Below, piece after piece: positions 38,447-56,128 of a stretch of DNA of 64,000 bases (its first letter is position 1; each line of letters starts with the position of its first letter). The DNA lies in assembly GCF_014203955.1 (NCBI RefSeq), contig NZ_JACHKA010000001.1:2945001-3009000 (forward strand), in the 5' to 3' direction. The translations under genes and the position numbers were made by a program. The notes under the pieces are model-generated. The model was given only the letters and a program-made list of their open reading frames with translations. It did no database searches and had not been told where the DNA came from. The DNA comes from Sphingobium lignivorans. Its GTDB lineage: Bacteria; Pseudomonadota; Alphaproteobacteria; Sphingomonadales; Sphingomonadaceae.

Positions 38447-38462
38447 GTTGTAACGATCGTTA
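38447..38462 (-). promoter_or_regulatory. Regulon operator A (flavoprotein operon)
   Basis: Minus strand TAACGATCGTTACAAC. The 12-bp perfect palindrome TAACGATCGTTA lies 111 bases upstream of the flavoprotein start and runs into a -10-like TACAAC. It is one of five such motifs in the block. Confidence 0.8.
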
Positions 38463-38499
38463 TATGTTCGACGGCTTGTCCCTGACGCGCCCCGGCCTC

Positions 38500-39000
38500 C
38501 TATGCTGGTTTGTCGAGGCGACGTTCGTTCGGGTCAAGCTTCAGCATCTCCGGGCTCTTGAGGGCCGGGTCCCAATGCTCGACGATCTTGCCGTCCTCGA
38601 TCCTGAACAGGTCGAACCAGCTCGTATGATAAGGCTCGCCTTCCGCGTCGCGCTCGGGACGAACGAACGTGAACTGCACCATGTCCCGCTCGGCGACGAT
38701 GGAGACCAGCGGCAGTTCGATCGTCGGCTTGATGTCGCGTTCGGGGCGCGATGCCCGGATGAAGGCGCTCAGGGCATCCCGGCCGCTCACCACATTGGGA
38801 TTGTGCTGGATATAGTCCGGCCCGATGAAATCGCTCACCCGATCCGCGCGCCCGGCCTGCAGGACGATGCGGTACATGTCATAGCACAGCCGCTTGTTCC
38901 GCGCGATCGCGGGATCGGCGCTGGCGAGCATCGCGTCGTGATCGGCCGCGACGACCGGGGTCGTCTGGCCCGGAATCGGCTCGGCGGCCGCGACCAGCAC
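38500..39000 (-). CDS. NTF2/SnoaL-like protein
   Basis: About 166 residues of NTF2-like fold. PDYIQHNPNVVSGRDALSAF near residue 60, YHTSWFDLFRIEDGKIVEHWD near residue 125 and the ending LDPNERRLD are shared with the periplasmic paralogue at 44419-44997. GTG 39000 has CAGGAC upstream and starts 12 bases after the preceding NTF2-like stop; an ATG 20 codons later is possible. No export signal is evident, so it is cytoplasmic. The fold in known members supports cyclases, isomerases and cofactor-free lyases; the reaction here is unknown. Confidence 0.8.
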   Translation of the reverse strand: MLVAAAEPIPGQTTPVVAADHDAMLASADPAIARNKRLCYDMYRIVLQAGRADRVSDFIGPDYIQHNPNVVSGRDALSAFIRASRPERDIKPTIELPLVSIVAERDMVQFTFVRPERDAEGEPYHTSWFDLFRIEDGKIVEHWDPALKSPEMLKLDPNERRLDKPA

Positions 39001-39011
39001 TGTCCTGCCGC

Positions 39012-39428
39012 TCAAGAGGGCTGCTCCTCGTTCCAGGGGCGCGGCCATTTGCGCGTGTCATCCCAATGCTCGACGATCAGGCCGTCCTCGAGCCGGAACA
39101 TGTCGAAGGCATGGCCCATATAGGTCTCGCCCGGCCGGGTCGGGTCGGGCTGCGCCTGTTCCCAGATGGCCACGACATAGTCGCCCTGGGCCACCGTGCG
39201 CAGCAGTTCCTTGCGAGCGGGCGGCGTGAAGCCTTCCGGCAGATTGCGGATGATCTTGACCAGATGCAGGATATGCTCCCGGCCGGAGGGCATGTTCACA
39301 TTGTGCTGGATATAGTCGGGGTGGATATATTTGAGGACCGCTTCCGGGTCGCCTTCGTAGATCACGCCCTTCCACATCTCCATCACGATCGCGGCATTGC
39401 GCTCTTCAAGGGTGGGTTGGTCTGTCAT
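39012..39428 (-). CDS. NTF2/SnoaL-like protein
   Basis: A 138-residue NTF2-like protein. HPDYIQHNVNMPSGREHILH near residue 35, AFDMFRLEDGLIVEHWDD near residue 107 and a C-terminal WPRPW are visible. It starts seven bases after the DUF3237 stop and is followed closely by another NTF2-like gene, so the three form one unit led by operator B. The YIQHN and HWD elements are common to the small paralogues in this block. Confidence 0.83.
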   Translation of the reverse strand: MTDQPTLEERNAAIVMEMWKGVIYEGDPEAVLKYIHPDYIQHNVNMPSGREHILHLVKIIRNLPEGFTPPARKELLRTVAQGDYVVAIWEQAQPDPTRPGETYMGHAFDMFRLEDGLIVEHWDDTRKWPRPWNEEQPS

Positions 39429-39435
39429 GCCTGCC

Positions 39436-39951
39436 TCATGTCAGCGCGTAGTAACGCAGCACATTGCCTTCGACATGGCGCTCGCCCACGCCGATGAAGA
39501 CATGTTTGGTGAGCCAGTCATGCTTGCCGACCGGCGTCTCGAAGCTCGGCTGGCCGCGAAGATAATATTCCTGCTGCTCGACCGGCGCCCCGCCGCGGAA
39601 CGCCCAGTCGCGGATCCGTTCCATCGTCTCGGGCTTGCGGCCCCATAGGAAACCCTTGTTGTTGAGGAGGATGAGCGTGCCGTCTTCCTCCTCAAGCATG
39701 TAGCGCGCATCGAACACGGCGACGTCGTCCGGTCGGAAAAAGGCATAGTCGCCGCCCGAGCCCGGCACGGCCTTGCCGCGCAGGCGCGGCCCCTCGAAGG
39801 TGCCGCTTTCCACATAGACCGCGCCGCGATTGCCGCCCCAGGGCGTGTTGTTGATCATCTGGACGCGCGGAAAGGTGAGCCGCACTTCCATCACGAACTC
39901 CAGCCGGGGGTTGTCCAGGGTGGAGAAGGGTCCCGTGAAGGCGTCAGTCAT
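39436..39951 (-). CDS. DUF3237 family protein
   Basis: A 171-residue DUF3237 (UPF0311) beta-barrel protein. The hallmarks NTPWGGNRGAVYVESGTFEG near residue 35, PGSGGDYAFFRPDD near residue 62 and ARYMLEEEDGTLI near residue 82 are all present, and YYLRGQPSFETPVGKHDWL near the end is typical. From memory, two DUF3237 proteins of Sphingobium SYK-6 (PhcF, PhcG) were shown to decarboxylate a dehydrodiconiferyl-alcohol derivative to a stilbene. That role would fit the stilbene-cleaving enzyme in this block but is inferred. It is the first gene after operator B. Confidence 0.85.
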   Translation of the reverse strand: MTDAFTGPFSTLDNPRLEFVMEVRLTFPRVQMINNTPWGGNRGAVYVESGTFEGPRLRGKAVPGSGGDYAFFRPDDVAVFDARYMLEEEDGTLILLNNKGFLWGRKPETMERIRDWAFRGGAPVEQQEYYLRGQPSFETPVGKHDWLTKHVFIGVGERHVEGNVLRYYALT

Positions 39952-40070
39952 GGGACAGCCTCCGGGCCGGCGCGGCGGCCGTCGGGGACATCGCGTTCAT
40001 GCCGGTCGGGCGGCAGGATGGTGGAACTGGGCGCAAGGCTAGCCTCTCCTTTTTATCTTCGTTGGGAGGC

Positions 40071-40099
40071 ATGGTAACGATCGTTATTATGCCCTGCAA
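40071..40099 (-). promoter_or_regulatory. Regulon operator B with promoter (DUF3237 operon)
   Basis: Minus strand: TTGCAG (40099-40094), 17-base spacer, TACCAT (40076-40071). The motif TAACGATCGTTACCAT (40086-40071) fills the spacer end and the -10. The 308-bp region up to the MarR start at 40260 shows nothing else clear. Confidence 0.8.
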
Positions 40100-40259
40100 G
40101 AGGCGATGCGCACCCTCGCGCCGGACCCGAAGGCATCGTGCGTCGCCCGAAGGCGCCGGACAGAGCCGGATCCGGACGGGCTTTCCGCGCGATGTCGCGG
40201 TGACGCGCGGATCATCAACGGCCTTGACGAAATCGAACGCGCCGCCGCAGATAGCCCCC

Positions 40260-40799
40260 ATGTCAAACCCATCCGACCCGTCCGAGACGCCGCAGACGTT
40301 ACAGTCCAACCTGAGCGAAGAAGCCGAAATGCTTCACAATATCCTCAAGCTGGCAAACCGGCTGATGGCGCCTTTTTCGACGTTTCTTGCCCATGAACAT
40401 CGCATCAGCCTCAACGAATTCCGGGTGATGATGCAGATCGGATTCTACAACACGACCGCGAGTCACGAGCTGGTCGAGCTGACCGGCGTCAATGCGATGA
40501 GTATCTCGCGCGCGGTCGCCACGCTCGAGCGGCATGGCCGCGTGGTCACGGTCCCCGATCCGACCAATCGCCGACGCAAGCGACTGACCCTGACGGCCGA
40601 GGGCGAGCGGCTGTTCCGCGCGATGCGTCCGGCCACGGATCTTGTCGCCCAGTATCTCCTGTCGCGACTCAAGCCCCATGAGAAGGCGGCGCTCGATCAT
40701 ATCCTGCGCACGCTCATCGACACGCTGGAAGCGAAGGACGAAGAAGGTCGCTCGCTGTTCCTGGAGCACACCCGCCCGGATCGCGCGGTCGAGCCCTGA
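40260..40799 (+). CDS. MarR family regulator, probable repressor of the catabolic regulon
   Basis: A 179-residue MarR protein. The winged helix is TTASHELVELTGVNAMSISR (recognition helix), then AVATLERHGRVV with the basic wing PTNRRRKRLTLTAEG. It starts at ATG 40260 without an obvious ribosome site; earlier in-frame starts cannot be excluded. It is the only regulator inside the 35.6-56.8 kb block and lies next to operator B, so it is the natural candidate to bind the five TAACGANYGTTA sites. The effector is probably a pathway intermediate. Confidence 0.85.
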   Translation: MSNPSDPSETPQTLQSNLSEEAEMLHNILKLANRLMAPFSTFLAHEHRISLNEFRVMMQIGFYNTTASHELVELTGVNAMSISRAVATLERHGRVVTVPDPTNRRRKRLTLTAEGERLFRAMRPATDLVAQYLLSRLKPHEKAALDHILRTLIDTLEAKDEEGRSLFLEHTRPDRAVEP

Positions 40800-40852
40800 A
40801 TGCGAAGACGGATCGACATTCAACCTCTGAAGCGCATTGCCTCCCTGTAAAA

Positions 40853-40941: not shown

Positions 40942-40995
40942 AAAATATTGGCAGGAAGAGTCCTGTTCAACGGACGAAATGAACGTCGATACCCC

Positions 40996-41143
40996 CTAGG
41001 GCTGATCGACATTCAGATGATGGCGTGGCGAAAATGGTGGTTTCTCGGGACCCGGCGCGCAGCGTACTCAAGGTACGTGAGCACCGGAAGACCGAGAAAG
41101 CGCCATTTGCAGTCCGCCAGCGCTGGATGTCGACCAGCCCTAG
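40996..41143. repeat. 148-bp imperfect long hairpin element
   Basis: CTAGGGCTGATCGACATTCAG (split 40996-41016) pairs imperfectly with 41123-41143, and the whole 148 bp folds back: TGGTTTCTCGGG with CCGAGAAAGCGC and GCGTACTC with GTACGTGAGC at the tip. The right end includes the stop codon of the NTF2-like gene, so it may end its transcript. It looks like a non-coding REP/MITE-type unit. Confidence 0.7.
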
Positions 41144-41568
41144 CCCATGCCGCGCCCGCTTGCGGTGGTGACCGGCACGGGCTGCGCCACGTCCCAATGC
41201 TCGACGATCAGGCCATCCTCGAATCGGAAAATGTTCATCAGCGCATGGCCCGGGTCTTCCGGTCCCTGGCGGCCGATGAGGTGCGCGACGGCATAGTCGC
41301 CGTCCACCAGGATGCGCCGCACGTCCATGGTGACGGTGGGCCGGGCCAACAGGCCTTCGAGATGCGCAATGGCGGCTTCCCGGCCATCGGTGACCGCGGG
41401 ATTATGCTGCATATAGTCGACATGAACGTAACGTTCGAAGGCTTCGCGAACCTTCATTTCGTCATAATATAATCGCACGAAGTCCAGAAATGCAGCGCGC
41501 GTGCGGTTCGTGCGGGCGGCATATTCGGGCGTGGAAGCTTCTGTAAGCTCGGCGGTTCGCATGTTCAT
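41140..41568 (-). CDS. NTF2/SnoaL-like protein
   Basis: A 142-residue NTF2-like protein. HVDYMQHNPAVTDGREAAIA near residue 48 and MNIFRFEDGLIVEHWDVAQP near residue 110 place it with the other small paralogues of the block. ATG 41568 has GGAGGATAGG upstream. It is a single-gene unit with operator C in front, and its stop lies in the end of the long hairpin element. Function unknown; cytoplasmic. Confidence 0.83.
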   Translation of the reverse strand: MNMRTAELTEASTPEYAARTNRTRAAFLDFVRLYYDEMKVREAFERYVHVDYMQHNPAVTDGREAAIAHLEGLLARPTVTMDVRRILVDGDYAVAHLIGRQGPEDPGHALMNIFRFEDGLIVEHWDVAQPVPVTTASGRGMG

Positions 41569-41650
41569 GGCCTATCCTCCTCCTTGATCCGCTCGTTTCG
41601 CGCGGTTTGCCGGATTTTTCGATGTGGTCGCGAGGCTGATGTCAGCTCGA

Positions 41651-41679
41651 TTGACCAATTGTAACGTTCGTTATATTGT
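41651..41679. promoter_or_regulatory. Regulon operator C (NTF2-like gene and TonB receptor)
   Basis: Minus-strand motif TAACGAACGTTACAAT (41673-41658) carries a -10-like TACAAT toward the NTF2-like gene. On the plus strand TTGACC (41651-41656), a 17-base spacer that includes the operator, and TATTGT (41674-41679) form a promoter toward the TonB receptor. One site can thus control both directions. The rest of the 393-bp gap shows no gene. Confidence 0.8.
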
Positions 41680-41961: not shown

Positions 41962-44331
41962 ATGAACACCATATTTTTGCGCGGCTGCACCAGCGCGTTC
42001 GTGATCGCTGCGGCGAGCTTGGGCGCGAGCCAGGGATGGGCGCAGGACGCCGCCGCCGGGGCGCCCGCGCCTCAGGACGAGCGCGTCGACGCGGCCGAGG
42101 GCGATATCGTCGTCACGGCGCAGCGCCGTTCGGAGCGTTTGCAGGATGTCCCGATTTCCGTCTCGGTGGTCGGCGGCGAGCGGCTCGCCCGTGACAATCT
42201 GACGAGCCTGTCCGCGGTCGCCGATCGCCTCGCCAATGTGCGCATCACGCCCGGGCCGTTCGACCAGTTGAACATTCGCGGCATCGGCTCGTCCAACAAC
42301 ACCGGCTTCGAACAGTCGGTGGCGACCTTCGTCGACGGTGTCTATCGCTCGCGTCCGCGCGCCATCCGCGCCGCCTTGTTCGATGTCGAGCGGGTCGAGG
42401 TGCTCAAGGGGCCGCAGACCACCTTCTTCGGCAATAACGCGATCGCGGGCGCGCTCAACATCACCACGCGCAAGCCGGGCAACGCCTTCGAGGCCAATGC
42501 CTCCGCGCTTTACGGCACTTATGGCGAATATAATGTCGAGGCCGGCGTGACCGCGCCGCTCGGCGAGATGCTGAGCGTGCGCCTGGCCGGCCGGCTTTCG
42601 GGGATGGACGGCTTCGTGAAGAACGAGTTCACGGGCAAGGATGGGCCAAGGGAGCGCAACCGGGTCGGGCGCGCGTCGATCGCCTTCACGCCGAGCGCCA
42701 ACTTCCGTTCGGATCTTCGCTTCGACACCGGCAAGATGTCGGCGCAGGATTTCCTGCCTTTCGAGCTAGAGCATTGTCCCCCGCCCTCGCCTTTCCCGGT
42801 CGGCGGCAGCTGCGCCAACTATATCGCGGCCAATGGCGGCCCCGTCGACGACGAGTTGAACTGGCGCAATTCCAGCCGCCCCGGCAAGCTGGACTATGCC
42901 TTCAACGAGCTGGGCTGGACCAACTCGCTCAGCATCGGCGATTACACGCTGAACGCCATCACTGGCTATTTCGATCATGATACGGAATATCTGCAGCAGC
43001 TCATCCCCTCGCCCGTTCCCGGGATCGGCGGGGGCAGCCTGCTGCCGGTCTTCCAGCGCGAGACGTTCAGCCAATGGTCGCAGGAAATTCGCCTCGTCTC
43101 CCCCACGGGGGGCTTCCTCGAATGGCAGCTGGGCGCCTATTATGGCAGCAGCAAGATGCGCAACAATGGCGTGACGGGCTTCTTCTTCGCGCCCTTCGGC
43201 GCGTCCGCGCCGCCCTATACCGCCCAGACGCCCGTTGCCGGGCGCCTGACGGTGCATGAGGATGCCACCACCAAATCGGTGTTCGGCGCCGCCACGCTGC
43301 GGCCGGTGGACCGGGTCAAGCTCAACCTCGGCCTGCGTTACTCGGTGGTCTCGAAGGACGCTTTCCGCGCCCTGCACAACGGCACGGCGGACCCGAACTT
43401 CCCGACACCGGAGAACTATGTGCCGGCCAGCAAGGCCGTCAGCGATACGCTGAACGCCATCCTCGGCTCGAACAACATGGATTTCCCGGATCCCTCGCGC
43501 GAGGATGATAAGCTCATGCCGTCCGTGAGCGTACAGTTCGATGCGACACCGGACCTCACGGCTTACGCGAGCTACACTAAGGGCTTCAAGGCCGGCGGCT
43601 ACAGCGGCGGCTCGGCCGGCGGGGATTTCGGGCCTGAGACGGTCAATGCCTATGAAGTCGGCCTGAAGGGCAATCTCTTCGCCCGGCAGGTCACATTCTC
43701 GCTGAGCGCGTTCCGGGGCGATTATTCGGGCCTTCAGGAATCCGTGTCGGAGACCCTGCCCAGCGGCACGGTGCGCGTCAGCGTCGCCAATGCCGCGTCC
43801 GCCCGATCACAAGGCGTGGAATTCTCGGCGAGCTGGCGCATGACCAGCTGGCTCACTGCGAGCACGGACCTTGCTTATCTGGACGCGATCTACCTCAATT
43901 ATGACGGTGCACCCTGTTCGTCGATCCAGACGCTGCTCGGCGCCTCGGCCGGCTGCGTCGGCCGGCGGCAGGACCTCTCCGGCAAGCGGCGCGGCTTCGC
44001 ACCCGAATGGACCGGCAATTTTCGCCTCGATGCGACCATTCCGGCCGGAGACATGCAGGTGCGGATCTCGCCGCTCCTCTATTTCAGCTCCTGGTACTTC
44101 CAGTCCTCCACGGCGGACGACCTGATCCGGCAGAAAGGCTTCGCGAAAGTCGATCTGCGCGTCGGCGTCGGGCCGCAGGATGATCGCTGGAGCGTGGCGG
44201 TGATCGGCCAGAACCTGACCGACCGCGCCACCGCCGGGTTCCGCCAGACGGTGAGCGGCGCCAATGGCTCGGTCTCGGCCCTGGCCGAGCGTCCGCGCAC
44301 GGTCGCGGTCCAGCTGACCGCGCGCTACTGA
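41962..44331 (+). CDS. TonB-dependent receptor of the catabolic regulon
   Basis: A 789-residue receptor. The signal peptide ends at GWAQDA (residue ~24), GDIVVTAQRRSERLQDVPIS is the N-terminal signature, NIRGIGSSNNTGFEQSVATF and VEVLKGPQTTFFGNNAIAG mark the plug, and the barrel ends RTVAVQLTARY. ATG 41962 has GGGGAGGAAGC upstream. Transcription probably starts at the promoter overlapping operator C. It heads a unit with a periplasmic NTF2-like protein and an aldehyde dehydrogenase, so it likely imports the aromatic substrate of this regulon. Confidence 0.92.
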   Translation: MNTIFLRGCTSAFVIAAASLGASQGWAQDAAAGAPAPQDERVDAAEGDIVVTAQRRSERLQDVPISVSVVGGERLARDNLTSLSAVADRLANVRITPGPFDQLNIRGIGSSNNTGFEQSVATFVDGVYRSRPRAIRAALFDVERVEVLKGPQTTFFGNNAIAGALNITTRKPGNAFEANASALYGTYGEYNVEAGVTAPLGEMLSVRLAGRLSGMDGFVKNEFTGKDGPRERNRVGRASIAFTPSANFRSDLRFDTGKMSAQDFLPFELEHCPPPSPFPVGGSCANYIAANGGPVDDELNWRNSSRPGKLDYAFNELGWTNSLSIGDYTLNAITGYFDHDTEYLQQLIPSPVPGIGGGSLLPVFQRETFSQWSQEIRLVSPTGGFLEWQLGAYYGSSKMRNNGVTGFFFAPFGASAPPYTAQTPVAGRLTVHEDATTKSVFGAATLRPVDRVKLNLGLRYSVVSKDAFRALHNGTADPNFPTPENYVPASKAVSDTLNAILGSNNMDFPDPSREDDKLMPSVSVQFDATPDLTAYASYTKGFKAGGYSGGSAGGDFGPETVNAYEVGLKGNLFARQVTFSLSAFRGDYSGLQESVSETLPSGTVRVSVANAASARSQGVEFSASWRMTSWLTASTDLAYLDAIYLNYDGAPCSSIQTLLGASAGCVGRRQDLSGKRRGFAPEWTGNFRLDATIPAGDMQVRISPLLYFSSWYFQSSTADDLIRQKGFAKVDLRVGVGPQDDRWSVAVIGQNLTDRATAGFRQTVSGANGSVSALAERPRTVAVQLTARY

Positions 44332-44418: not shown

Positions 44419-44997
44419 ATGAAGTCGCCCTTGATGATGATGCTGGTCGCCTTCGCCGCCACGTCCATGAGCCATGCCCAGACCGTCACCACGGCCGAAG
44501 GGCAGGCAGCGCTGCTCGCCAGCGCGGACAGCAAGCTCCAAGCCAACAAGAAGCTCGTCTATGACATGTATCGCGAGGTGCTGCTCGGCGGCCGCGCCGA
44601 TCTGGTCGATCGCTACTTCACGGTCGAATATCTGCAGCATAATCCCAACGTCGCATCGGGCCGCGATGCGCTGGCAAAGTTCATTCGCGGGTCGCGGCCC
44701 GAGCGTCCGGTCAATCCCACGATCACGCTGCCGCTCATCACCATCATGGCCGAGCGCGACCTCGTTCTGGTCGTGACGCAGCGCCCGATGCGCGACGAAG
44801 GCGGTGAAGGCTATGTGACGAGCTGGTTCGATCTTTTCCGCATTGCCGATGGCAGGATCGCCGAGCATTGGGATCCGGCGCTGAAGTCCGCCGCAATGCT
44901 TCGGTTCGATCCCAACAGCGTGCCCGAGGCGCTGTCGGCGATCGAAGCGGAGACCGCGAAGGATGAAAAGAAACCCGGGGGCGACCCCGAACGCTGA
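44419..44997 (+). CDS. Exported NTF2/SnoaL-like protein
   Basis: A 192-residue paralogue of the protein at 38500-39000 with a signal peptide (MKSPLMMMLVAFAATSMSHA, cleavage near HAQ). EYLQHNPNVASGRDALAKF near residue 73 and VTSWFDLFRIADGRIAEHWD near residue 133 match the paralogue, and both end with the ALKS.(A/E)ML.(F/L)DPN segment. Export places an NTF2-like, perhaps enzymatic, step in the periplasm right behind the TonB receptor (87-base gap). Some sphingomonads are known to start aromatic dimer processing outside the cytoplasm, so a role on the incoming substrate is plausible. Confidence 0.82.
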   Translation: MKSPLMMMLVAFAATSMSHAQTVTTAEGQAALLASADSKLQANKKLVYDMYREVLLGGRADLVDRYFTVEYLQHNPNVASGRDALAKFIRGSRPERPVNPTITLPLITIMAERDLVLVVTQRPMRDEGGEGYVTSWFDLFRIADGRIAEHWDPALKSAAMLRFDPNSVPEALSAIEAETAKDEKKPGGDPER

Positions 44998-45060: not shown

Positions 45061-46479
45061 ATGGACCATGAATTCAAGCTGCTGATCGACGGCAAGGCCG
45101 TCGATGGCGCAAGCAGTTTCGATGTCATCAATCCTGCGACCGGAGAAGCGTTCGCGCAATGCCCGAAGGCGGACGCGGCGATGCTCGAGGACGCGGTGGC
45201 CGCTGCCCGGCGGGCTTTCCCCGCATGGTCCGCCCTGCCCATCGAGGAGCGCGCCGCGCGGGTCAACGCGCTTGCCGATGCGCTGGAAGCGCGCGCCAGC
45301 GAGTTCGCGAGCCTGCTGACGCGCGAGCAGGGCAAGCCGATCGATCAGGCCATGTACGAGATCATGGGCAGCGTGTTCACGCTGCGCGCCTTCGCGGACA
45401 TGCGGATCGAAACGAAGGTCCTGCGCGAGGGCGAGGGCAACACGGTCATCGAGCATCGCACGCCGCTCGGGGTCGTCGGCGCGATCACGCCGTGGAATTT
45501 CCCGGTGATCCTGCTGATGAACAAGCTCGGCCCGGCGCTGGTGACGGGCAATTGCGTGGTCGCCAAGCCGGCGCCCACGACGCCGCTCACCACGCTTCTC
45601 TTCGGGGAGCTCGCGAAGGACATTCTGCCGCCGGGCGTGTTCAATGTGCTGTGCGACGAGAATGAGCTGGGCCCGCTCCTCACCAGCCATCCCGACATCG
45701 CGAAGATCGCCTTCACCGGATCGACGGCGACCGGCAAGAAAGTCATGGCTTCGGCTGCGGACAGCGTGAAGCGCGTGACGCTGGAACTGGGCGGCAATGA
45801 TGCCGCGATCGTGCTTGACGATGTCGATCCGCGGGCGGTGGCCGGCAAAGTCTATCAGGGTGCAATGGCCAATGCCGGCCAGATCTGCGTGGCGATCAAG
45901 CGGGCCTATGTGCCATCCTCCATGTATGACGAGTTCTGCGACGAGCTGGCCCGGCTGGCCGGCGAGGCCGTGGTGGATGACGGTGCCCGGCAAGGCGCGA
46001 CGATCGGCCCGATCCAGAACAGGATGCAGTTCGAGAAGGTCAAGGCGCTGCTCGACAGCGCCCGGGCGGAGGGCACCATCCTGTCCGGCGGCGAAGCGCT
46101 CGACCGACCCGGCTATTTCATTCCGCCAACCATCGTGCGCGATCTCGACGATGATGCGCCGCTGGTCCGGGAGGAACAGTTCGGCCCGGTGCTGCCGGTC
46201 CTCAAATATGACGATATCGATGATGTGATCGCCCGTGCGAATGACAGCGATTACGGGCTCGGCGGCACCGTCTGGGGCCGGGACGTCGCGCGCGCGACGG
46301 AAGTCGCCAAGCGCATCGATACCGGCACCGTCTGGGTGAACCAGCATCTCGCCATCGACGCCAACATCCCCTTCCGCGGATCGAAGCAGTCCGGCCTTGG
46401 CGGCGAACTCGGCGAGGCGGGCCTGTTTGAATATACGCAGGCGCACATCATCAACGCGGTTCCGCTCGAGGACCGCTGA
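45061..46479 (+). CDS. NAD(P)-dependent aldehyde dehydrogenase
   Basis: A 472-residue ALDH. Motifs: TPWNFPVILLMNK near residue 142, FTGSTATGKKVM near 219, the general base Glu in TLELGGNDAAIV near 242, and the nucleophile Cys in NAGQICVAIKR near 276. EEQFGPVLPVL follows near residue 375. It is preceded by GGAGGAACGAT and lies 63 bases after the exported NTF2-like gene. It may oxidise an aromatic aldehyde or side-chain aldehyde produced by the pathway, such as a vanillin-type product; the substrate is inferred from context. Confidence 0.9.
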   Translation: MDHEFKLLIDGKAVDGASSFDVINPATGEAFAQCPKADAAMLEDAVAAARRAFPAWSALPIEERAARVNALADALEARASEFASLLTREQGKPIDQAMYEIMGSVFTLRAFADMRIETKVLREGEGNTVIEHRTPLGVVGAITPWNFPVILLMNKLGPALVTGNCVVAKPAPTTPLTTLLFGELAKDILPPGVFNVLCDENELGPLLTSHPDIAKIAFTGSTATGKKVMASAADSVKRVTLELGGNDAAIVLDDVDPRAVAGKVYQGAMANAGQICVAIKRAYVPSSMYDEFCDELARLAGEAVVDDGARQGATIGPIQNRMQFEKVKALLDSARAEGTILSGGEALDRPGYFIPPTIVRDLDDDAPLVREEQFGPVLPVLKYDDIDDVIARANDSDYGLGGTVWGRDVARATEVAKRIDTGTVWVNQHLAIDANIPFRGSKQSGLGGELGEAGLFEYTQAHIINAVPLEDR

Positions 46480-48048: not shown

Positions 48049-48076
48049 TTGCAATAATTCTAACGACCGTTACGAT
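48049..48076 (+). promoter_or_regulatory. Regulon operator D with promoter
   Basis: TTGCAA (48049-48054), 16-base spacer and TACGAT (48071-48076). The motif TAACGACCGTTACGAT (48061-48076) fills spacer and -10. It lies between the divergent ALDH and the SnoaL-like operon. Confidence 0.8.
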
Positions 48077-48122: not shown

Positions 48123-48761
48123 ATGTCTGATGAAATCGCGTCGCTGCGCGAGTCGATCGAGGCCTTGCGGGCGGAAGTCCACACGCTGAGAGACAGGACG
48201 TCGCAGGCCGAATCCCATCTCGCCATCGCCAATCTCCAGGCCGCTTACGGCTATTATGTCGACAAGGGCCTGTGGGACGAGGCGGCCGACATGTTCACGG
48301 CGGACGGCACGCTCGAGATCGCCGGGCGCGGGGTCTATGTCGGGCAGGATCGGGTGCGGCAATATCTCCACGCGCTGCCGCCTTATGAACGCGGCGTCCT
48401 GTTCAATCACATGCAGCTCCAGCCCGTCATCCATGTCGATGCCGATGGCGAGCGGGCGCAGGGCCGCTGGCGCGCCTTCATCCTCATTGCCTGGCTCGGC
48501 GGCGAGTCTCGCTGGGGTGAGGCGATCTATGAGAACCGCTACCGCAAGGTCGATGGCGTCTGGCGCATTGCCGCGCTGCACGCTTTCATCACTTTCTATT
48601 GCGAGTATGATCGCGGCCTCAATCATGGCGGCGTTCCGATGGTCCGCAGCATCGACGGCCTCCAGCCGGACAAGCCCTCAACGCACGACTATGAGGCTTT
48701 CCCGGAAGTCTTCGTCCCGCCCTTCCATTATCCCAATCCCGTGAGCGGCCGGACATGGTGA
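48123..48761 (+). CDS. SnoaL/NTF2-like protein, candidate cofactor-free lyase (LdpA-like)
   Basis: A 212-residue NTF2-fold protein with an N-terminal coiled-coil segment (residues 1-35, DEIASLRESIEALRAEVHTL). IANLQAAYGYYVDKGLWDEA, MFTADGTLEIAGRGVYVGQD and YENRYRKVDGVWRIAALHAF are the SnoaL-like core. A C-terminal tail of about 45 residues ends FHYPNPVSGRTW. From memory, the sphingomonad diarylpropane lyase LdpA, which deformylates a beta-1 lignin dimer to lignostilbene without cofactor, is an NTF2-fold protein; this one is a good candidate for a similar step. ATG 48123 has AGGAGAG upstream. It overlaps the next gene by seven bases. Confidence 0.75.
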   Translation: MSDEIASLRESIEALRAEVHTLRDRTSQAESHLAIANLQAAYGYYVDKGLWDEAADMFTADGTLEIAGRGVYVGQDRVRQYLHALPPYERGVLFNHMQLQPVIHVDADGERAQGRWRAFILIAWLGGESRWGEAIYENRYRKVDGVWRIAALHAFITFYCEYDRGLNHGGVPMVRSIDGLQPDKPSTHDYEAFPEVFVPPFHYPNPVSGRTW

Positions 48762-49636
48762 GCGCGATGCCGGTCGTCCACGAGAGGGCCGCGCTCTATG
48801 CGGTCATGGATCGGTTCATGGAGGCGCTCGTCGCGCGCGATCCGGGCCGGGTGCGCTGGGCCGATGACCTCCGCGTGACCGAGAACAACGTGGCCCTGAT
48901 GATGGGCGACGGCATCTGGGGCACGGCGACGGCGCGCGGCGACTATGACCTGCGCTTCGCCGATCCGCAGACCGGTCAGGTCGGCCTGTTCACGACGATC
49001 ACCGAGACGGTCGAGGAGTCGGCTTTCACTGTCCGGCTCGGCGTCGATCCCTCAGGCGCGATCACGCAGGTCGAGACGCTGGTCGTCCGCCAGAGCGACG
49101 AGGCGCTGGTGTTCGCGAACCCGCGCTTCGAGAGAAAGCCGGTGCTGGAAGCCATCGTGCCGGAAGCGGAGCGGATGAGCCGCGAGCGGCTGCGCGCCGT
49201 TGCGGATGGCTATTTCAACACGCTCGAGCAGAATGACGGGCAGCTCTTCACGCGCTTTCATCCCGAGTGCAATCGCGTCGAGAATGGCGTGCAGACGACC
49301 AACAATCCCGATTTCATGCTGCCCATCGCCGGTCTTCCCTGCGAGGAGCAGTTCAGGCTGGGCTGGTATCGCTATGACGATCGCCTGCGCGGCCGTCGCT
49401 TCCCGCTCGTAGACGTCGAGCGGGGGCTGGTGCTGGCTTATGGCTTCATCGATCATTGCGGGCGGCTTGCGGACTATACGCTGACCAATGGCGAGCATGT
49501 CTCCTCGCTGATCCGCCGTCCGCATACCTTCTATCTCGCCGAACTGTTCAAGATCGAGAATGGCGCGCTGCGCCAGATCGAGGCGAACTTCATTACCGTG
49601 CCTTATCATATGCCCTCCCCATGGGATCGCCCGTGA
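48755..49636 (+). CDS. Unknown protein with two tandem NTF2-like domains
   Basis: A 293-residue protein that I read as two NTF2-like domains. Residues ~8-125 open ERAALYAVMDRFMEALVARD and contain the strand VGLFTTITETVEESAFTVRL. Residues ~140-285 contain LRAVADGYFNTLEQNDGQLF, NNPDFMLPIAGLPCEEQF and LAELFKIENGALRQIEANF. No cofactor motif is visible. It overlaps both neighbours (7 bases upstream, GTGA downstream), so it must be made in step with the LdpA-like protein and the SDR. A lyase, isomerase or dehydratase role is possible; I do not know the family function. Confidence 0.7.
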   Translation: MVSAMPVVHERAALYAVMDRFMEALVARDPGRVRWADDLRVTENNVALMMGDGIWGTATARGDYDLRFADPQTGQVGLFTTITETVEESAFTVRLGVDPSGAITQVETLVVRQSDEALVFANPRFERKPVLEAIVPEAERMSRERLRAVADGYFNTLEQNDGQLFTRFHPECNRVENGVQTTNNPDFMLPIAGLPCEEQFRLGWYRYDDRLRGRRFPLVDVERGLVLAYGFIDHCGRLADYTLTNGEHVSSLIRRPHTFYLAELFKIENGALRQIEANFITVPYHMPSPWDRP

Positions 49637-50433
49637 GCGCGCGGCTGATAGAGACGGTCGCCTTCGTGACCGGCGGCGGGCGCGGCCTTGGCGCGGGCAT
49701 CGCGACCGCACTGGCCGAGGCGGGCGCGTCGGTCGTCGTGGCGGCGCGCACCCTGCCGCAGGTCGAGGAGACGGTGCAGGCCATCACCCGTGCCGGCGGA
49801 CGGGCGATCGGGGTGCGCTGCGACGTTACCGTTCGTGACAGTGTGGCGGCTGCCTATGCGGAGGCGAAGGCGGCGTTCGGCATGCCGGATCTGCTGGTCA
49901 ACAATGCCGGCGTGCAGGGTCCGCTCGGCCCGGTCGGCCTGGTCGATACGCAGGCCTGGTGGGATACGCAGGCGGTCCACGTCCTGGGCGCCCTGCACTG
50001 CATTTCGACGGCACTGCCCGACATGATCGAGCGCGGCCATGGCCGCATCCTCAACATCGCCTCGCAGGCGGGCACCTTCGTCGCGCCCTTCGCCTCGGCT
50101 TACGCCGTGGCCAAGGCCAGCCTCATTCGCCTTACCGAGCATCTCGATTTCGAGCAGAAGGCGGCCGGCGTGCGCGCCTTCGCCATCCAGCCGGGCACGA
50201 TCATGACGGCGATGGCGCAGGAGACCCTGAAGTCCCCGGAGGCCCATGCCTTCGCCAAGCCGCTGGTCGCCTTGCTCGAATCCACCACGGCGGAGGAGAG
50301 TGCGCAGGGCATGGCCCGGCTGTGCCGGTTCGTGGTGGCGCTCGCCGCCGGTGAGCATGATGCGATGGCCGGCCGCTATCTGGATATCGAGAAGGATATC
50401 CCCGATGCGGCCACGGGGTCTCAGCCGTCGTGA
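49633..50433 (+). CDS. Short-chain dehydrogenase/reductase (SDR)
   Basis: A classical SDR of about 266 residues. VTGGGRGLGAGIATALAEAG is the cofactor loop, NNAGVQGPLGP near residue 90 and the catalytic Ser (NIASQAG) and YAVAK near residue 157 are present. Start GTG 49633 overlaps the previous stop (GTGA) and has GGGA seven bases before; an ATG at 49621 in the same frame has no site. It likely oxidises or reduces a benzylic or side-chain alcohol/ketone in the pathway. Confidence 0.87.
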   Translation: MSARLIETVAFVTGGGRGLGAGIATALAEAGASVVVAARTLPQVEETVQAITRAGGRAIGVRCDVTVRDSVAAAYAEAKAAFGMPDLLVNNAGVQGPLGPVGLVDTQAWWDTQAVHVLGALHCISTALPDMIERGHGRILNIASQAGTFVAPFASAYAVAKASLIRLTEHLDFEQKAAGVRAFAIQPGTIMTAMAQETLKSPEAHAFAKPLVALLESTTAEESAQGMARLCRFVVALAAGEHDAMAGRYLDIEKDIPDAATGSQPS

Positions 50434-51680
50434 CGTCCGCGACCTTATCCGCCGATCGGCGGACCTTCATGCCGCTGCTCCTGTGCGCGCTGATCATGTT
50501 CATCGACGGGTACGATCTCTATGCCCTGCCGCTGGTCGTGCCTTATCTGTCGGCGGAGCTTGGCATTCCTCCCCAGCAGTTCGGCGTGGCGCTTTCCGCG
50601 GTCCTGCTCGGCCTCGGCCTGGGCGCGGTGCTGATCGCGCCAATGGGCGACAGGATCGGGCGCAGGCCGGTCATCCTCACCGCGACCGCCATGATGGGGC
50701 TGACCTGCCTCGGCACCGCCACCGGCTCGACCGTCACGGAGTTCACTTTGTGGCGGCTCGCGACCGGCCTTTCGCTCGGTGCCTGCCTGCCCAACGTGAC
50801 GGCGCTGGTGGCCGAACTCGCGCCGCAGGGCAAAAGCGCGCGGACCCTGACAGTCGTCTCCATGGGCATTTCCGGCGGCGGCATCGTGGCGGGGCTGGTG
50901 GCACCGCCGCTCATATCGCTCGGCGGCTGGGAGTCGCTGTTCGTGGCCGGCGGCATCGCGACGCTGATCCTGCTGGTCGCGCTCGCCTGGAAGCTGCCCG
51001 AATCCCCGACATTCAGGAAATCGGCCGGGCAAGTGCAGGAGAGGAAGTCCATTGCCTTCGTCCAGCTGCTCAGCCCGCCCTTGCTCTTCTCGACCGTCCT
51101 GTTCGCCGGGCTTTATGCGGTCAATGCGCTGGTGCTCTATTATGTGACGAGCTGGGTGCCGACGATCCTGCCCAATGCCGGCTTCGCCATGGACACGGCG
51201 TCGCGCTTCCTCTCGCTGATCCAGCTCGGCGGCCTGCTGATCGGCCTCGGCCTCTCGCTGCTGCTGGATCGCGGCTGGGCCGTGCCGGCGATCGTGGGTA
51301 CCTATGCCAGCGTCGTGGTCGCGCTGCTTCTGCTGGGCGTCGTGGCGCCGGGCCTGTGGAGCTGGGGCTTCCTGCTGCTGGTCGCGGGCGGCGGCATTTC
51401 CGCGGCACATCTGGTCATCATGGCTGTCGCGGTCGGCTTCTTCCCGCCGCATCTGCGCTCCTCCGCGATCGGCATCGCGGTGGCCGTGGCCCGGCTCGGC
51501 GCCATTGGCGGGCCGATGCTGGGCGGCCTCGCGATCGGCGCGGGCGCCAGCACGTCGACATTCTTCGCGCTGGCGGTGCTTCCGGCCTGCCTGTGCATTG
51601 GCGGGGCCTTGCTGATCCCGAGAGCGCAACGCACCGCCAAGGCGGTCACGCCCCCCGCTGTTGTCGGGGCCGGCGCCTGA
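50430..51680 (+). CDS. MFS transporter, aromatic acid:H+ symporter (AAHS) type
   Basis: A 416-residue carrier with about 12 membrane segments. CALIMFIDGYDLYALPLVVP in helix 1 has the DGYD form of the AAHS motif, and APMGDRIGRRPVIL is the loop 2-3 motif. It begins on a GTG overlapping the SDR stop (GTGA), making it the last gene of the four-gene operon behind operator D. It probably moves the aromatic substrate or a product such as vanillate across the inner membrane. Confidence 0.88.
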   Translation: MTSATLSADRRTFMPLLLCALIMFIDGYDLYALPLVVPYLSAELGIPPQQFGVALSAVLLGLGLGAVLIAPMGDRIGRRPVILTATAMMGLTCLGTATGSTVTEFTLWRLATGLSLGACLPNVTALVAELAPQGKSARTLTVVSMGISGGGIVAGLVAPPLISLGGWESLFVAGGIATLILLVALAWKLPESPTFRKSAGQVQERKSIAFVQLLSPPLLFSTVLFAGLYAVNALVLYYVTSWVPTILPNAGFAMDTASRFLSLIQLGGLLIGLGLSLLLDRGWAVPAIVGTYASVVVALLLLGVVAPGLWSWGFLLLVAGGGISAAHLVIMAVAVGFFPPHLRSSAIGIAVAVARLGAIGGPMLGGLAIGAGASTSTFFALAVLPACLCIGGALLIPRAQRTAKAVTPPAVVGAGA

Positions 51681-51690
51681 TCCACGCGGA

Positions 51691-52765: not shown

Positions 52766-54244
52766 CTACGCCGCCGCAGCGCGGCCCCGGGCCTGCGCCA
52801 GTCGCTCGCGTGACACCCAGGCGCCATGGATCTGCGCGCGCATCGGAACGGGGATCAGCACTCGCGCCACCGGTCCCGCCGCGATGTCCCCGGCGTTCAC
52901 CACCCACAGTTCCGAAGCGAAGCGACCGGCGTCGAGCTGACGGTCGATCACCGCCAGCAGCCACCCCTCATGGTCCGGCTCGGACGAGGGGACGTGCACC
53001 GGCTCGCTGATCGCCAGGCCGGGCTCCAGCGGCATCATGTCGATCCGGCCATTGCCCGGCTCGATGCGCAGCATGGCGTTGAATGCGGCGCCGACCGGGC
53101 CGCCCGGAAGCGGTGCGCCGCCTTGCGGATTGATGGTGAGATACCAGGCCGCGCGATAGGCCCGGCCCTGATCGGCATCGCGCAGCCGGGGCATGTCGCC
53201 CGGCGGGCCGATCACCCGGGATTCGAAGCCCTCCTCGTCGCTCGCCAGATTGAAGGTCCAGCGGACGAGGCCGCCCCCGAGCTCGTTCTGCGCCCGGTGG
53301 ATGCCGCCCGCCTCGCGCATGAAGGCGAAGGCATTGGTGTCGGACAGGCAGATGTCGAGATGCACCAGATCGCCATCGTCATAGGCGTTGACGAAATGGA
53401 AGGCGGAAACGCCCTTGGGTCCCTTGAACCAGCGCATCTCCTCGACCTTGCCATAGCGCGGCATGATGCCCACCCAGCTTTCCAGCTCCTGCTGATGCGC
53501 CCAGTGGGCACCGCCGGCCTTCAGCCGGTCGAGGTCGGCCGTGGTCGGGAAAATGGGGAAGACCGCATATTTGCCGGTGATCGCGAAATCATGGATGGTC
53601 GAGCAATAAGGCTGCTGGAACCACTGTTCGGAGACCAGATTGCCATCCTTGTCGGCGATGCAATAGGCGACGTCCGGCGTGCAGAGGCCCCCGGCCTCAT
53701 AGCCGAAGAAGAACATCTCGCCGGTCGCCGGATCGACGCGGGGATGCGCAGTGAAGGTCTGCGACTTCAGCGCACCATGATAGTCCCAGCGCCCGATCGT
53801 CTCGAGCGTCTCGGGATCGATCTCGTAAGCAAGGCCATCCTCCTTGGTCATGAACAGGCGCCCCGCATGCCAGACCGGCGTCGTGTTCGAGACCGTCCCG
53901 TCTATGCCCTGAACCTCCGCATCGTCCGTGAACGGATTGCGATATTTGCCGAACAGGGAGCGGCCCGCCGCCTTCTCGGCCTTGTAGCGCGCCGTCTCGA
54001 CATAGCGGATGGCGAAATCCACCTTGCCGTCGCGAATGCCGAACCGGGAGATCATGCCGTCGCCCGAGAGCACGATCTCGTCATCGAACTTCGGCGGATA
54101 GGCGGGGTCGGGCACGGCACGGAAGAAGGCGCCGTCGATCTCGCGCGGGATCTCGCCGATCACGTCCAGATCATGCGCGTTCCATTCGATGCGGACGGGC
54201 GTGTTGAGCCCGGTGAAGTGAATGGTGTCGGGAAAACTCGCCAT
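52766..54244 (-). CDS. Carotenoid-oxygenase-family dioxygenase, probable lignostilbene alpha,beta-dioxygenase
   Basis: A 492-residue non-heme iron enzyme. The four iron histidines are His167 (TFTAHPRVD), His218 (STIHDF), His283 (SAFHFVNAYD) and His473 (QIHGAWVS), almost the same numbering as NOV1 of Novosphingobium. Tyr101 (GKYRNPF) and Lys134 (FMTKEDG) match the pair that binds the 4-hydroxyl of stilbenes in lignostilbene dioxygenases. It should split a 4-hydroxystilbene at the central double bond into two aromatic aldehydes. It follows the GMC gene by 88 bases on the same strand. Confidence 0.9.
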   Translation of the reverse strand: MASFPDTIHFTGLNTPVRIEWNAHDLDVIGEIPREIDGAFFRAVPDPAYPPKFDDEIVLSGDGMISRFGIRDGKVDFAIRYVETARYKAEKAAGRSLFGKYRNPFTDDAEVQGIDGTVSNTTPVWHAGRLFMTKEDGLAYEIDPETLETIGRWDYHGALKSQTFTAHPRVDPATGEMFFFGYEAGGLCTPDVAYCIADKDGNLVSEQWFQQPYCSTIHDFAITGKYAVFPIFPTTADLDRLKAGGAHWAHQQELESWVGIMPRYGKVEEMRWFKGPKGVSAFHFVNAYDDGDLVHLDICLSDTNAFAFMREAGGIHRAQNELGGGLVRWTFNLASDEEGFESRVIGPPGDMPRLRDADQGRAYRAAWYLTINPQGGAPLPGGPVGAAFNAMLRIEPGNGRIDMMPLEPGLAISEPVHVPSSEPDHEGWLLAVIDRQLDAGRFASELWVVNAGDIAAGPVARVLIPVPMRAQIHGAWVSRERLAQARGRAAAA

Positions 54245-54332
54245 GGGCTGATCCTCTCATATTGTCATTGATCGTTCGCGGCAGCGCACCGGCCAAAAGC
54301 GTATTTCAGGACGGCTCTCGGACGTCGCCCTC

Positions 54333-55940
54333 TCAGGCGTTGCGCCGCAGCGTCCGCAGGACATGATCCGCGCCCTTGTCGCCCACCATGATGGCCGTCG
54401 CATTGGTGTTGCCTGCCGTCAGGGATGGGAAGATCGAGGCATCGGCGACCCACAGACCGTCCACGCCGATCACTTTCAGGTCCGGATCGATGACGGCCAT
54501 GGGGTCGTCCGCAGCGCCCATCCTGGCCGTGCCGACCGGGTGGAACATGGGGATGGCCGCGACCCGGACATAATCGCGCAGCTCGGCGGGATCGGTGAGC
54601 GCGGGGCCTGGGCGCACTTCGCTGGTGATATGCTCGGCCACGGGCGGGCGCGTCAGGATATCCCGCGCGATCCCGATGCCTTCGACGATCTGGTCGATAT
54701 CGTCGTCGCAGGACAATTGCTGGTGATGGATGACCGGCGGCGCGAGCGGATCGGCCGATCCAAGCGTGATCTGCCCGCGATAGCTCGGCCGCATCAGGCC
54801 GACCAGTGTCGAGACCGAGGCGGTCTTGCCCAGCACGAGGCGGCCCTGCTCGTCGAAATCGAAGGCAAAGGCCGCGAACGAGATCTGGATATTGGGCGCC
54901 GGCAAGCCCGGCCGGGTCTTCACGAAGGCCTGGGCATGGCCGATGGAGGTGCTGAGCGCGCCGCGCCGCGACACGGCATAGCGCAGCACCGAGAGCGCGC
55001 CGCGCAGGCCGCGCGCATCGTCATTGAGCGTGTGCGCGGTGACGGTGTTGACCACATGCGTGCCGACATGATCCTGCAGGTTGCGGCCGACGCCCGGGCG
55101 ATCGCACAGCACCGGCACGCCGACCGAGGCCAGATGGGCGGCCGGGCCGATGCCGGAGAGCATCAGCAGGCGCGGCGTGTTCATGGCGCCGGCGCTCAGC
55201 ACGACGCCGTGCTTCGCGTGCAGCGTCTTGTGCGCCCCGTCCTGAATATAGGCGATGCCGGTCGCGCGGCCATCCTCGATCAGGATGCGCAGCACCTGGG
55301 CGCCCAGCAGCGTCTGCGGCGGCGTTGCGCCCTTGAACTCATGGAGATAGCCGCGCGCGGACGAGCAGCGCGTGCCGTTCCGCTGGGAGACCTGGACATA
55401 ATCGACCCCTTCGGCCTTCTCGCCGTTGAGGTCGCGTCTTTCGATGCCGGCCTGCTCCGCTGCGGCGATCCACGCATCGGTGATGGGGTAATGCGCGCGC
55501 CCTTCGGACACCGCGATGGGGCCACCTGTGCCGCGCCAGGCATCCGCACCGCGTTCATTGTCCTCCATGCGCCGGAAATAGGGAAGCACGGATTCATAGT
55601 CCCAGCCGGCCGCGCCGAGCGCTTGCCAGTTGTCATAGTCCCAGCGATGTCCCCGGATGAACATCATCCCGTTGAGCGCGCTGCCGCCGCCCAGCATCTT
55701 GCCTGCCGGCCAGATGTCGGCCCGGCCGCCCCGGGATTCGTCCGGCTCCACCTGGTAGCACCAGTCATAGGCGGGGTTCTGGACGATGGAACTGGTGAGC
55801 GCGGGGACGCGGGACCGGAAATGCCGGTCCGACTGGCCCGCCTCAACGAGCGTTACGTTCAATCCGGCCTCGGCGAGCCGGCCGGTCATGGCTGCGCCCG
55901 CCGATCCGCCGCCGATCACGATGATGTCAGTGTCGCTCAC
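54333..55940 (-). CDS. GMC-family FAD oxidoreductase (alcohol dehydrogenase type)
   Basis: A 535-residue glucose-methanol-choline oxidoreductase. DIIVIGGGSAGAAMTGRLAE at the N-terminus binds FAD, GKMLGGGSALNGMMFIRGH near residue 80 and GAMNTPRLLMLSGIGP near residue 250 are the two GMC signatures, and HPVGTARMG near residue 469 and GNTNATAIMVGD near residue 510 hold the active-site His/Asn. In SYK-6, GMC enzymes (PhcC/PhcD, from memory) oxidise a side-chain alcohol of dehydrodiconiferyl alcohol derivatives; a similar role here is plausible. It is the first minus-strand gene behind operator E. Confidence 0.9.
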   Translation of the reverse strand: MSDTDIIVIGGGSAGAAMTGRLAEAGLNVTLVEAGQSDRHFRSRVPALTSSIVQNPAYDWCYQVEPDESRGGRADIWPAGKMLGGGSALNGMMFIRGHRWDYDNWQALGAAGWDYESVLPYFRRMEDNERGADAWRGTGGPIAVSEGRAHYPITDAWIAAAEQAGIERRDLNGEKAEGVDYVQVSQRNGTRCSSARGYLHEFKGATPPQTLLGAQVLRILIEDGRATGIAYIQDGAHKTLHAKHGVVLSAGAMNTPRLLMLSGIGPAAHLASVGVPVLCDRPGVGRNLQDHVGTHVVNTVTAHTLNDDARGLRGALSVLRYAVSRRGALSTSIGHAQAFVKTRPGLPAPNIQISFAAFAFDFDEQGRLVLGKTASVSTLVGLMRPSYRGQITLGSADPLAPPVIHHQQLSCDDDIDQIVEGIGIARDILTRPPVAEHITSEVRPGPALTDPAELRDYVRVAAIPMFHPVGTARMGAADDPMAVIDPDLKVIGVDGLWVADASIFPSLTAGNTNATAIMVGDKGADHVLRTLRRNA

Positions 55941-56099
55941 GCGCTGCTTCTCTCTTCTTTGAGTGAGTGGAGTTTCCGGGAGCCCGGGCGTGTTTTTCCG
56001 GGATGTCAGCGCTGCGTGCAGCTCGTCTCACCAGCCGATGCCACGCATCGCATGCGGTGGATTCACCATCAAGCTCCTCTCGATTTTGGTCCTGCGCCC

Positions 56100-56128
56100 T
56101 TGTCATGAACCATAACGAATGTTACGAT
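56100..56128 (+). promoter_or_regulatory. Regulon operator E with promoter
   Basis: TTGTCA (56100-56105), 17-base spacer and TACGAT (56123-56128). The motif TAACGAATGTTACGAT (56113-56128) covers the spacer end and -10. It lies between the divergent GMC gene and the SnoaL-like gene. Confidence 0.78.

Follow-up and report, generated by a model that had tools for sequence, protein, structure and literature searches.

Which regulator governs a block of catabolic genes in Sphingobium lignivorans (contig NZ_JACHKA010000001.1 of assembly GCF_014203955.1), and through which operator, is the question raised by a short motif that recurs five times between positions 38,447 and 56,128 of a stretch of 64,000 nucleotides of this genome, hereafter called the window. 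An initial annotation, made from the letters of the stretch, read the five copies as a directional 16-bp motif in front of the transcription units of the block and assigned them to a MarR-family regulator encoded among them, with simple repression relieved by a pathway ligand. According to the present analysis the five sites (A to E from left to right; Table 1) are very probably operators of the MarR-family repressor encoded at 40260-40799. This reading is built on the presence of the motif, its uniqueness in the genome, its conservation, its co-occurrence with MarR and a promoter-like geometry.

Occurrence of the palindrome and of its presumed regulator

All five 16-mers were recovered at the coordinates and on the strands first given for them, and the pattern TAACGANYGTTACNAY has exactly five matches in the window (G+C content 64.2%) as opposed to none in 100 dinucleotide shuffles; five such 16-mers are not expected by chance. 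The genome consists of one contig of 4,207,152 bp, throughout which the core TAACGANYGTTA has no exact match outside the five sites; the frequent matches at unrelated genes that would have told against a regulon are absent. With one mismatch allowed, six further places in the genome appear, one of them within the GMC gene of the block, and the relaxed core TAACRNNYGTTA is found at six places, namely the five sites and TAACATATGTTA, which lies far from the block and inside a called gene. A matrix derived from 75 sites of other species, to which neither the window nor Sphingobium SYK-6 contributed, ranks the five window sites 1 to 5, and the next-ranking match scores 11.6 and is coding.

The MarR gene noted earlier among the sites is an intact open reading frame of 179 amino acids (aa) with Pfam matches to MarR and HTH models, and its product matched MarR chains in the PDB. 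Orthologues were found at 55-77% identity in 22 sampled genomes of the family and at 99% in SYK-6 (NC_015976.1), with a well conserved DNA-recognition segment among 23 aligned orthologues, and SYK-6 displays five sites at corresponding places and none elsewhere. The comparison was extended to 26 stretches (948 kb), comprising the 22 family genomes with a MarR orthologue, SYK-6, two loci of metagenome-assembled genomes and the window, in which TAACRNNYGTTA occurs 85 times, whereas eleven permuted half-site palindromes occur 0 (seven of them), 1, 1, 4 and 5 times. In 22 of the 26 stretches, including the window and SYK-6, the MarR match is preceded by an exact site at a distance of 76-185 bp, implying that MarR is autoregulated, with its own promoter among the predicted targets.

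Co-occurrence was studied in 197 genomes of the family besides the window and SYK-6. The median number of sites per genome is 9 in the 22 genomes with an orthologue and 1 in the 175 without (Mann-Whitney p 5e-14, kinship uncorrected), and a reversed-pattern control displays no difference between the groups (medians 10 and 12). At least six sites are present in 20 of the 22 genomes with an orthologue, the exceptions being G117 (1) and G111 (4). Within genera the contrast is repeated: two sampled congeners of the window that have no orthologue carry 0 and 1 sites, and the counts are 6 in G075 versus 0 in G143 and 8 in G065 versus 1 in G135. Three plasmid orthologues with about 58-66% identity played no part in motif discovery. 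On the megaplasmid of Novosphingobium RL4 (1.8-Mb record) all six sites lie within 18 kb of MarR, and in Sphingobium V4 three sites are situated near MarR, one of them directly upstream of a flavoprotein orthologue, and three elsewhere on the record; the third is treated below. The EMRT-2 plasmid, carrying a MarR protein of 26% identity, has no site in a stretch of 30 kb (15 kb on either side).

In genome G102 (C1:2983653-3049065) MarR is present as two paralogues 51 kb apart, which share 77% and 63% identity with the protein of the window and each have their own nearby upstream site and their own group of TAACRNNYGTTA sites; the co-resident paralogues may share one operator or engage in cross-talk.

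Several observations weigh against so close a bond between motif and regulator. The p value of 5e-14 overstates independence, as the genomes are related, and at least six sites are also present in four of the 175 orthologue-free genomes, so that part of the background has to be ascribed to chance. The closest site upstream of MarR stands at a distance of 530 bp in G075 and of 577 bp in L044; G117, with a contig of 8.6 kb, shows a single site at +2210 and none upstream of MarR; and around the orthologue of G111 (55%) no exact site exists in 40 kb, only a degenerate match at -94. On plasmid Mpl of Novosphingobium PP1Y (MarR 65%), the third plasmid orthologue, there are 0 exact sites on the whole plasmid and degenerate matches at -137 and -3544 of MarR, which is a failure of the exact-site rule.

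It might be supposed that the repeats are due to chance or represent a common genomic palindrome devoid of any regulatory role, for the core TAACGATCGTTA contains CGATCG and some remote TAACGATCGTTA matches in relatives are flankless and stand beside unrelated genes (MucR, sulfotransferase). However, with 0 matches in the shuffles and none expected in the window, none elsewhere in the genome, 85 occurrences against 0-5 for the permuted controls and a strong co-occurrence with MarR, a chance origin was rejected, the sequence evidence standing against it above all for B-E, and its probability is considered negligible. Another transcription factor, co-inherited with the cluster, could bind the palindrome and MarR be just one of its targets; co-travelling regulators are inseparable by co-occurrence, in relatives this palindrome is met again beside distant genes, and two block proteins (35850, 51860) yielded no Pfam match. 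Yet MarR is the only transcription factor recognised by Pfam among 20 block proteins scanned, and no recognised regulator appeared in the ten scanned of 14 conserved families that have no counterpart in the window, the other four being unscanned. Together with the site that stands just upstream of MarR in most stretches and with the separate site groups of the two paralogues in G102, this makes a foreign regulator improbable, and the MarR protein itself is retained as the presumed binder of the palindrome.

Conservation of targets in related genomes

Target counts refer to genes not more than 17 kb from MarR that belong to families occurring in at least seven genomes, SYK-6 left out; a site was regarded as upstream of a target when it lay within 350 bp, with gene starts, here as in the counts of divergent and remote sites below, from a simple in-house gene caller. 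A site precedes the lignostilbene dioxygenase (LSD) family, whose members are 63-77% identical to the LSD of the window, in 18 of 20 cases, the window included though there LSD follows the GMC oxidoreductase gene. The corresponding counts are 15 of 16 for NTF2-f, 18 of 23 for MarR, 14/14 for the short-chain dehydrogenase that precedes the flavoprotein in relatives, and 14/15 for an NmrA-type reductase of relatives. The family of the 293-aa protein (48755-49636) has a site directly upstream in 13 of 16; homologues of this protein, 57-82% identical, were noticed in 17 other stretches. Orthologues of the flavoprotein lie downstream of a site in Sphingobium V4, G066 and G103, or the site is found one gene further upstream.

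The GMC oxidoreductase is less uniform. One family of GMC proteins, preceded by sites in 10/10 cases, was rejected as the orthologue of the window gene, being a paralogue only 34-37% identical to it. Of the close orthologues, those of G102, L043 and G165 lie no more than 350 bp from a site, and in G165 the orthologues of GMC (82%) and NTF2-b (83%) carry sites on a contig other than that of MarR. Counting against the preferred reading, the distance grows to about 0.8 kb in G075 and about 3 kb in RL4, and the close orthologue of PP1Y likewise has no site within 350 bp.

Remote sites were inspected in three of seven genomes, all 23 of those three being considered. They are intergenic in 22 of the 23 cases, and their neighbours include LSD paralogues, aldehyde dehydrogenases, GMC, NTF2, flavin monooxygenases, esterase and PF00144 hydrolases, gluconolactonase-like proteins, a cupin and TonB receptors. 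Both flanking bases of the core, A(-3) and T(16), are missing in six of the 23, and five of these six are intragenic or have neighbours such as MucR, histidine kinase and sulfotransferase genes; these five are probably chance matches.

In L053 (9487-12620) and its counterparts an NmrA-type reductase and a pyrroloquinoline quinone (PQQ) dehydrogenase with a cytochrome domain follow a site divergent from NTF2-f, and neither is present in the window block. The NmrA-type reductase matches the solved structures of triphenylmethane reductase, SimC7, 5f5n and 3e48, which are listed as structural neighbours of PinZ (PMC12817470). Its best homologue in SYK-6 (46% identical) lies at 766 kb, roughly where pinZ (SLG_07320) is to be expected by interpolation.

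Promoter geometry and the proposed regulon

Geometry was pooled over 80 sites read in both orientations, SYK-6 excluded. A(-3)/T(16) are present at 86%, T-rich columns extend from -12 to -10, and the last two bases of each palindrome half are the TA that opens a -10-like box. With the box set at this terminal TA, 77 of 141 gene-facing flanks show TTG at a distance of precisely 16 or 17 bp upstream, compared with a mean of 1.7% and a maximum of 9.2% at offsets besides 16-18, and TAnnnT occurs in 121 of the 141. The directional 16-mer of the initial annotation had to be given up: the core itself is a near-perfect palindrome, 65 of the 80 sites lie between divergent called genes, and in the window gene starts stand on both sides of B, C, D and E, so that reading these four toward the nearest gene was a mere choice. 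What survives is the 12-bp dyad core, now part of a symmetric element of 20 bp with its flanks. Among the 65 divergent sites TTG at 16/17 bp is present in both directions in 25 and in one in 21. Two counts weaken the promoter interpretation: TTG at this distance is present in neither direction in 19 of the 65, and T(16) is no less frequent where the adjoining side has no called gene (17/19) than on gene-facing sides (121/141), so that it may be an operator base and was dropped as proof of a -10 box. TTG at 16/17 bp occurs on 4 of the 19 gene-free sides versus 77 of 141 gene-facing flanks and is the better promoter argument.

Four of the five window sites (B-E) lie between divergent genes. Toward marR, site B shows TTGGGA, 17 bp and TATTAT, and its position upstream of this gene implies autoregulation; the -35-like hexamer formerly proposed for B can be read by eye as TTGCAG at 17 bp, the scan having chosen the overlapping CTTGCA at 18 bp with equal score. 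The hexamers proposed for D and E were likewise confirmed (TTGCAA at 16 bp and TTGTCA at 17 bp): D reads TTGCAA-16-TACGAT rightward and TTGCGC-17-TAGAAT leftward, E reads TTGTCA-17-TACGAT rightward and TTGACA-16-TATGGT leftward. Site C has TTGACC, 15 bp and TATATT on its plus side and no good -35 on its minus side. Site A (matrix score 17.7, compared with 26.7-29.9 for B to E) deviates from the other four and is the weakest: it has neither A(-3)/T(16) nor a -35 exceeding two matches, which counts against it. Should A be no operator, only B-E would be bound and eight promoters controlled; this is rather unlikely, though worth keeping in mind, for in its favour A has an exact core, is intergenic and stands upstream of the flavoprotein gene, and orthologues of that gene in other genomes are likewise preceded by a site.

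Under the preferred reading a ligand-free MarR dimer would sit on the palindrome TAACRNNYGTTA, which together with its flanks measures 20 bp (ATNNTAACRNNYGTTANNAT). In sigma-70-type promoters on one strand or on both, the core would occupy the spacer between -35 and -10 and reach over the initial two bases of the -10 box, and one bound dimer would block two divergent promoters by steric repression. Simple repression over the promoter core, as first proposed, is supported insofar as the motif tracks the MarR orthologue and occupies this spacer; MarR binding, repression, ligand class and operon boundaries are predicted from sequence. All five sites are indeed upstream of units of the block, as had been claimed, but owing to the divergent pairs they would plausibly control about nine promoters instead of five, marR included. 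The predicted units are flavoprotein-cytochrome c; DUF3237-NTF2-b-NTF2-a; marR; NTF2-c; TonB receptor-NTF2-d-aldehyde dehydrogenase 2; aldehyde dehydrogenase (BzaA); NTF2-e-unknown-short-chain dehydrogenase-MFS; GMC-lignostilbene dioxygenase; and NTF2-f. A lignin-dimer or lignan-type compound, an aromatic breakdown product or a metabolite would release MarR, whereupon uptake, oxidation, side-chain shortening, stilbene cleavage and aldehyde oxidation would be switched on together.

Some members of the MarR family are activators or redox sensors. The protein might accordingly bind the sites and act partly as an activator, or it might sense redox state or stress instead of a pathway ligand; this is held to be unlikely, as the operator covers the spacer and the -10-like box, a position expected to occlude RNA polymerase, and the block genes with a family assignment are of catabolic or uptake type.

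The gene block and comparison with known systems

Table 1. Predicted operators and genes of the block, in window coordinates.
Feature	Position	Strand	Sequence	Basis or score
Cytochrome c	36359..36778	-		Pfam Cytochrome_CBB3; PinV-like position
FAD oxidoreductase, vanillyl-alcohol oxidase / 4-cresol dehydrogenase family, PinW-like	36775..38334	-		Pfam FAD_binding_4
Site A, operator-like core upstream of leftward flavoprotein/cytochrome c genes	38447..38466		GTTG-TAACGATCGTTA-TATG	matrix 17.7, rank 5
NTF2-a (SnoaL-like)	38500..39048	-		Pfam
NTF2-b (SnoaL-like)	39012..39428	-		Pfam
DUF3237 protein	39436..39951	-		Pfam DUF3237
Site B, predicted operator between DUF3237 (left) and marR (right)	40071..40090		ATGG-TAACGATCGTTA-TTAT	matrix 29.9, best of the window
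marR, MarR-family regulator, 179 aa	40260..40799	+		Pfam MarR/MarR_2/HTH_27
NTF2-c (SnoaL-like)	41140..41568	-		Pfam
Site C, predicted operator between NTF2-c (left) and TonB-dependent receptor (right)	41658..41677		ATTG-TAACGTTCGTTA-TATT	matrix 27.7
TonB-dependent receptor	41962..44331	+		Pfam
NTF2-d (SnoaL-like)	44419..44997	+		Pfam
Aldehyde dehydrogenase 2	45061..46479	+		Pfam
Aldehyde dehydrogenase	46540..48009	-		Pfam
Site D, predicted operator between aldehyde dehydrogenase 46540-48009 (left) and NTF2-e (right)	48057..48076		ATTC-TAACGACCGTTA-CGAT	matrix 28.3
NTF2-e (SnoaL_4)	48123..48761	+		Pfam
Conserved 293-aa protein	48755..49636	+		no Pfam or NCBIfam match
Short-chain dehydrogenase	49621..50433	+		Pfam, scanned from 49624
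MFS transporter	50430..51680	+		nearest aromatic acid/H+ symport subfamily, 207.5 bits, under cut-off 418.55
Lignostilbene dioxygenase, NOV2 type	52766..54244	-		NCBIfam NF053780, 894.6 bits vs cut-off 650; PDB lignostilbene dioxygenases
GMC oxidoreductase	54333..55940	-		Pfam
Site E, predicted operator between GMC-LSD (left) and NTF2-f (right)	56109..56128		ACCA-TAACGAATGTTA-CGAT	matrix 26.7
NTF2-f (SnoaL_4)	56156..56653	+		Pfam; start may be 56141

The start of the FAD oxidoreductase may be placed at 38301, 38334 or 38361; in the PDB its top match (5e-137) bears just the name 'Oxidoreductase', and eugenol/vanillyl-alcohol oxidases and p-cresol methylhydroxylases follow at about 1e-89 to 1e-115. 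Proteins at 35850, 48755 and 51860 have no Pfam match. DUF3237 is the family of the dilignol decarboxylases PhcF, PhcG and PinX (PMC12607616). From gene order compared with the table in PMC12997858, the aldehyde dehydrogenase at 46540-48009 appears to be the counterpart of bzaA (SLG_27910) of SYK-6, the lignostilbene dioxygenase that of LsdF/LSD5 (SLG_27970), lysates with which were reported to cleave lignostilbene (PMC8191317), and the GMC oxidoreductase that of SLG_27980, described there as the PinY homologue of SYK-6 (PMC12997858). Six NTF2/SnoaL-like genes are contained in the 18-kb block, three of them alike even in their DNA (repeats of 47 and 44 nt). LdpA and PcfL, which are formaldehyde lyases, belong to the same superfamily (PMC12997858), and hence the six proteins may be dimer-cleaving enzymes.

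The block is bracketed by a direct repeat of 214 nt (204/214 identical; 35407-35620 and 56828-57041, 21.4 kb apart). The copy on the right forms the 3' end of an alkaline-phosphatase-like gene (56842-58491) that is itself intact, the copy on the left being a remnant of the last codons of this gene. SYK-6 has the same repeat pair, and the phosphatase finds no match in two sampled congeners; the pair looks like the footprint of an insertion or duplication of the block. A scan for viral contigs revealed no relatives and PADLOC gave no match for MarR, and hitchhiking on a virus or a defence system was rejected on these two empty results.

Local repressors of the MarR family are winged-helix proteins that bind palindromic operators, about 16-20 bp long and situated at or close to a promoter, often their own, and are released from DNA by a ligand. 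The window protein exceeds the Pfam cut-offs for MarR, MarR_2 and HTH_27, and by sequence its presumed palindrome lies over promoter-like elements and upstream of marR; no NCBIfam equivalog cut-off was reached. Among the closest described parallels is Saro_0803 of Novosphingobium aromaticivorans, a MarR repressor of the gene for a stilbene-degrading enzyme (nov1), whose hold is weakened by resveratrol (PMC10046596). Both systems share a sphingomonad host, a target of stilbene-dioxygenase type, a site over the -10 box and a regulator gene reversed upstream of its target. However, the Saro_0803 operator is the inverted repeat GCAATA-N6-TATTGC with a 22-bp core, here it is TAAC/GTTA with core TAACRNNYGTTA, and one target promoter is described there as compared with about nine proposed here (PMC10046596). 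Membership in the Saro_0803 family was rejected on the grounds of this operator and of 21.5 bits against a cut-off of 200 (NCBIfam NF053777). DesR of SYK-6, a MarR repressor of vanillate/syringate genes, comes from the same group of organisms and likewise involves inverted repeats, with aromatic effectors and autoregulation (PMC6888825). DesR controls monomer genes, and the repeats described for it are GTTTGTGTCACATAC and GTTTGTGTAACATAC, located from +23 to +37 and from -40 to -26 (PMC6888825). In sequence they bear no relation to the present sites; the DesR operator type was rejected because the GTTTGTGTMACATAC repeat differs from the five sites.

In terms of enzymes the block resembles the pin pathway of pinoresinol catabolism in Novosphingobium rhizosphaerae LY (PMC12607616; reviewed in PMC12997858), of which it holds the types of PinY (GMC oxidase), PinX (DUF3237 decarboxylase), PinWV (cresol-dehydrogenase-like flavoprotein and cytochrome) and PinU (stilbene-dioxygenase homologue), each assigned by enzyme family. 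The PinZ type is absent from the window block, its nearest homologue being elsewhere in the genome, whereas relatives carry the NmrA-type reductase beside a site. As the enzyme types match dilignol pathways, and the pin pathway in particular, the likeliest signal would be an aromatic product or a compound of the lignan or dimer type. The words 'MarR' and 'operator' are both absent from the main text of PMC12607616. The literature searched, which does not extend to most subscription journals and supplements, yielded no description of this regulator and little on regulators of dilignol catabolism; it names no SLG_278xx gene, although SLG_279xx genes do occur in two papers and SLG_280xx in one, and mentions TAACGATCGTTA only in a single soybean paper. 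The regulator is apparently undescribed.

Bidirectional promoters of Escherichia coli also combine pseudo-symmetric DNA, divergent transcription and regulator sites at the core, but there one -10 element is shared and the starts are commonly 10, 18 or 23 bp apart (Warman et al. 2026, PMC12825309). In the present arrangement the symmetry resides in the predicted operator itself, with a distinct -10-like box on either side of the palindrome, and the starts would by calculation be separated by about 33 bp. Switches of this type are commonplace among MarR regulators; the arrangement of operator and promoter is unusually clean and repeated.

Whether the palindrome is the symmetric heart of a bidirectional promoter that recurs at dozens of promoters and governs a pinoresinol- or dilignol-type regulon in many sphingomonads, scattered over the genome in some of them and staying with its targets far from the regulator gene, can be put forward only tentatively, at somewhat less than even confidence. 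If the reading holds, one 12-bp operator would supply the spacer and the start of both -10 boxes, and a single dimer would silence two promoters standing back to back. A single repressor and its operator would thereby be named for a whole uncharacterised block of lignin-dimer type in the SYK-6 lineage, and the same motif is present in 20 other sampled species that have an orthologue and at least six sites. It would furthermore provide a sequence rule by which more targets can be found, such as the 293-aa protein of no known family, and a sensor part whose ligand would point to the substrate of the pathway.

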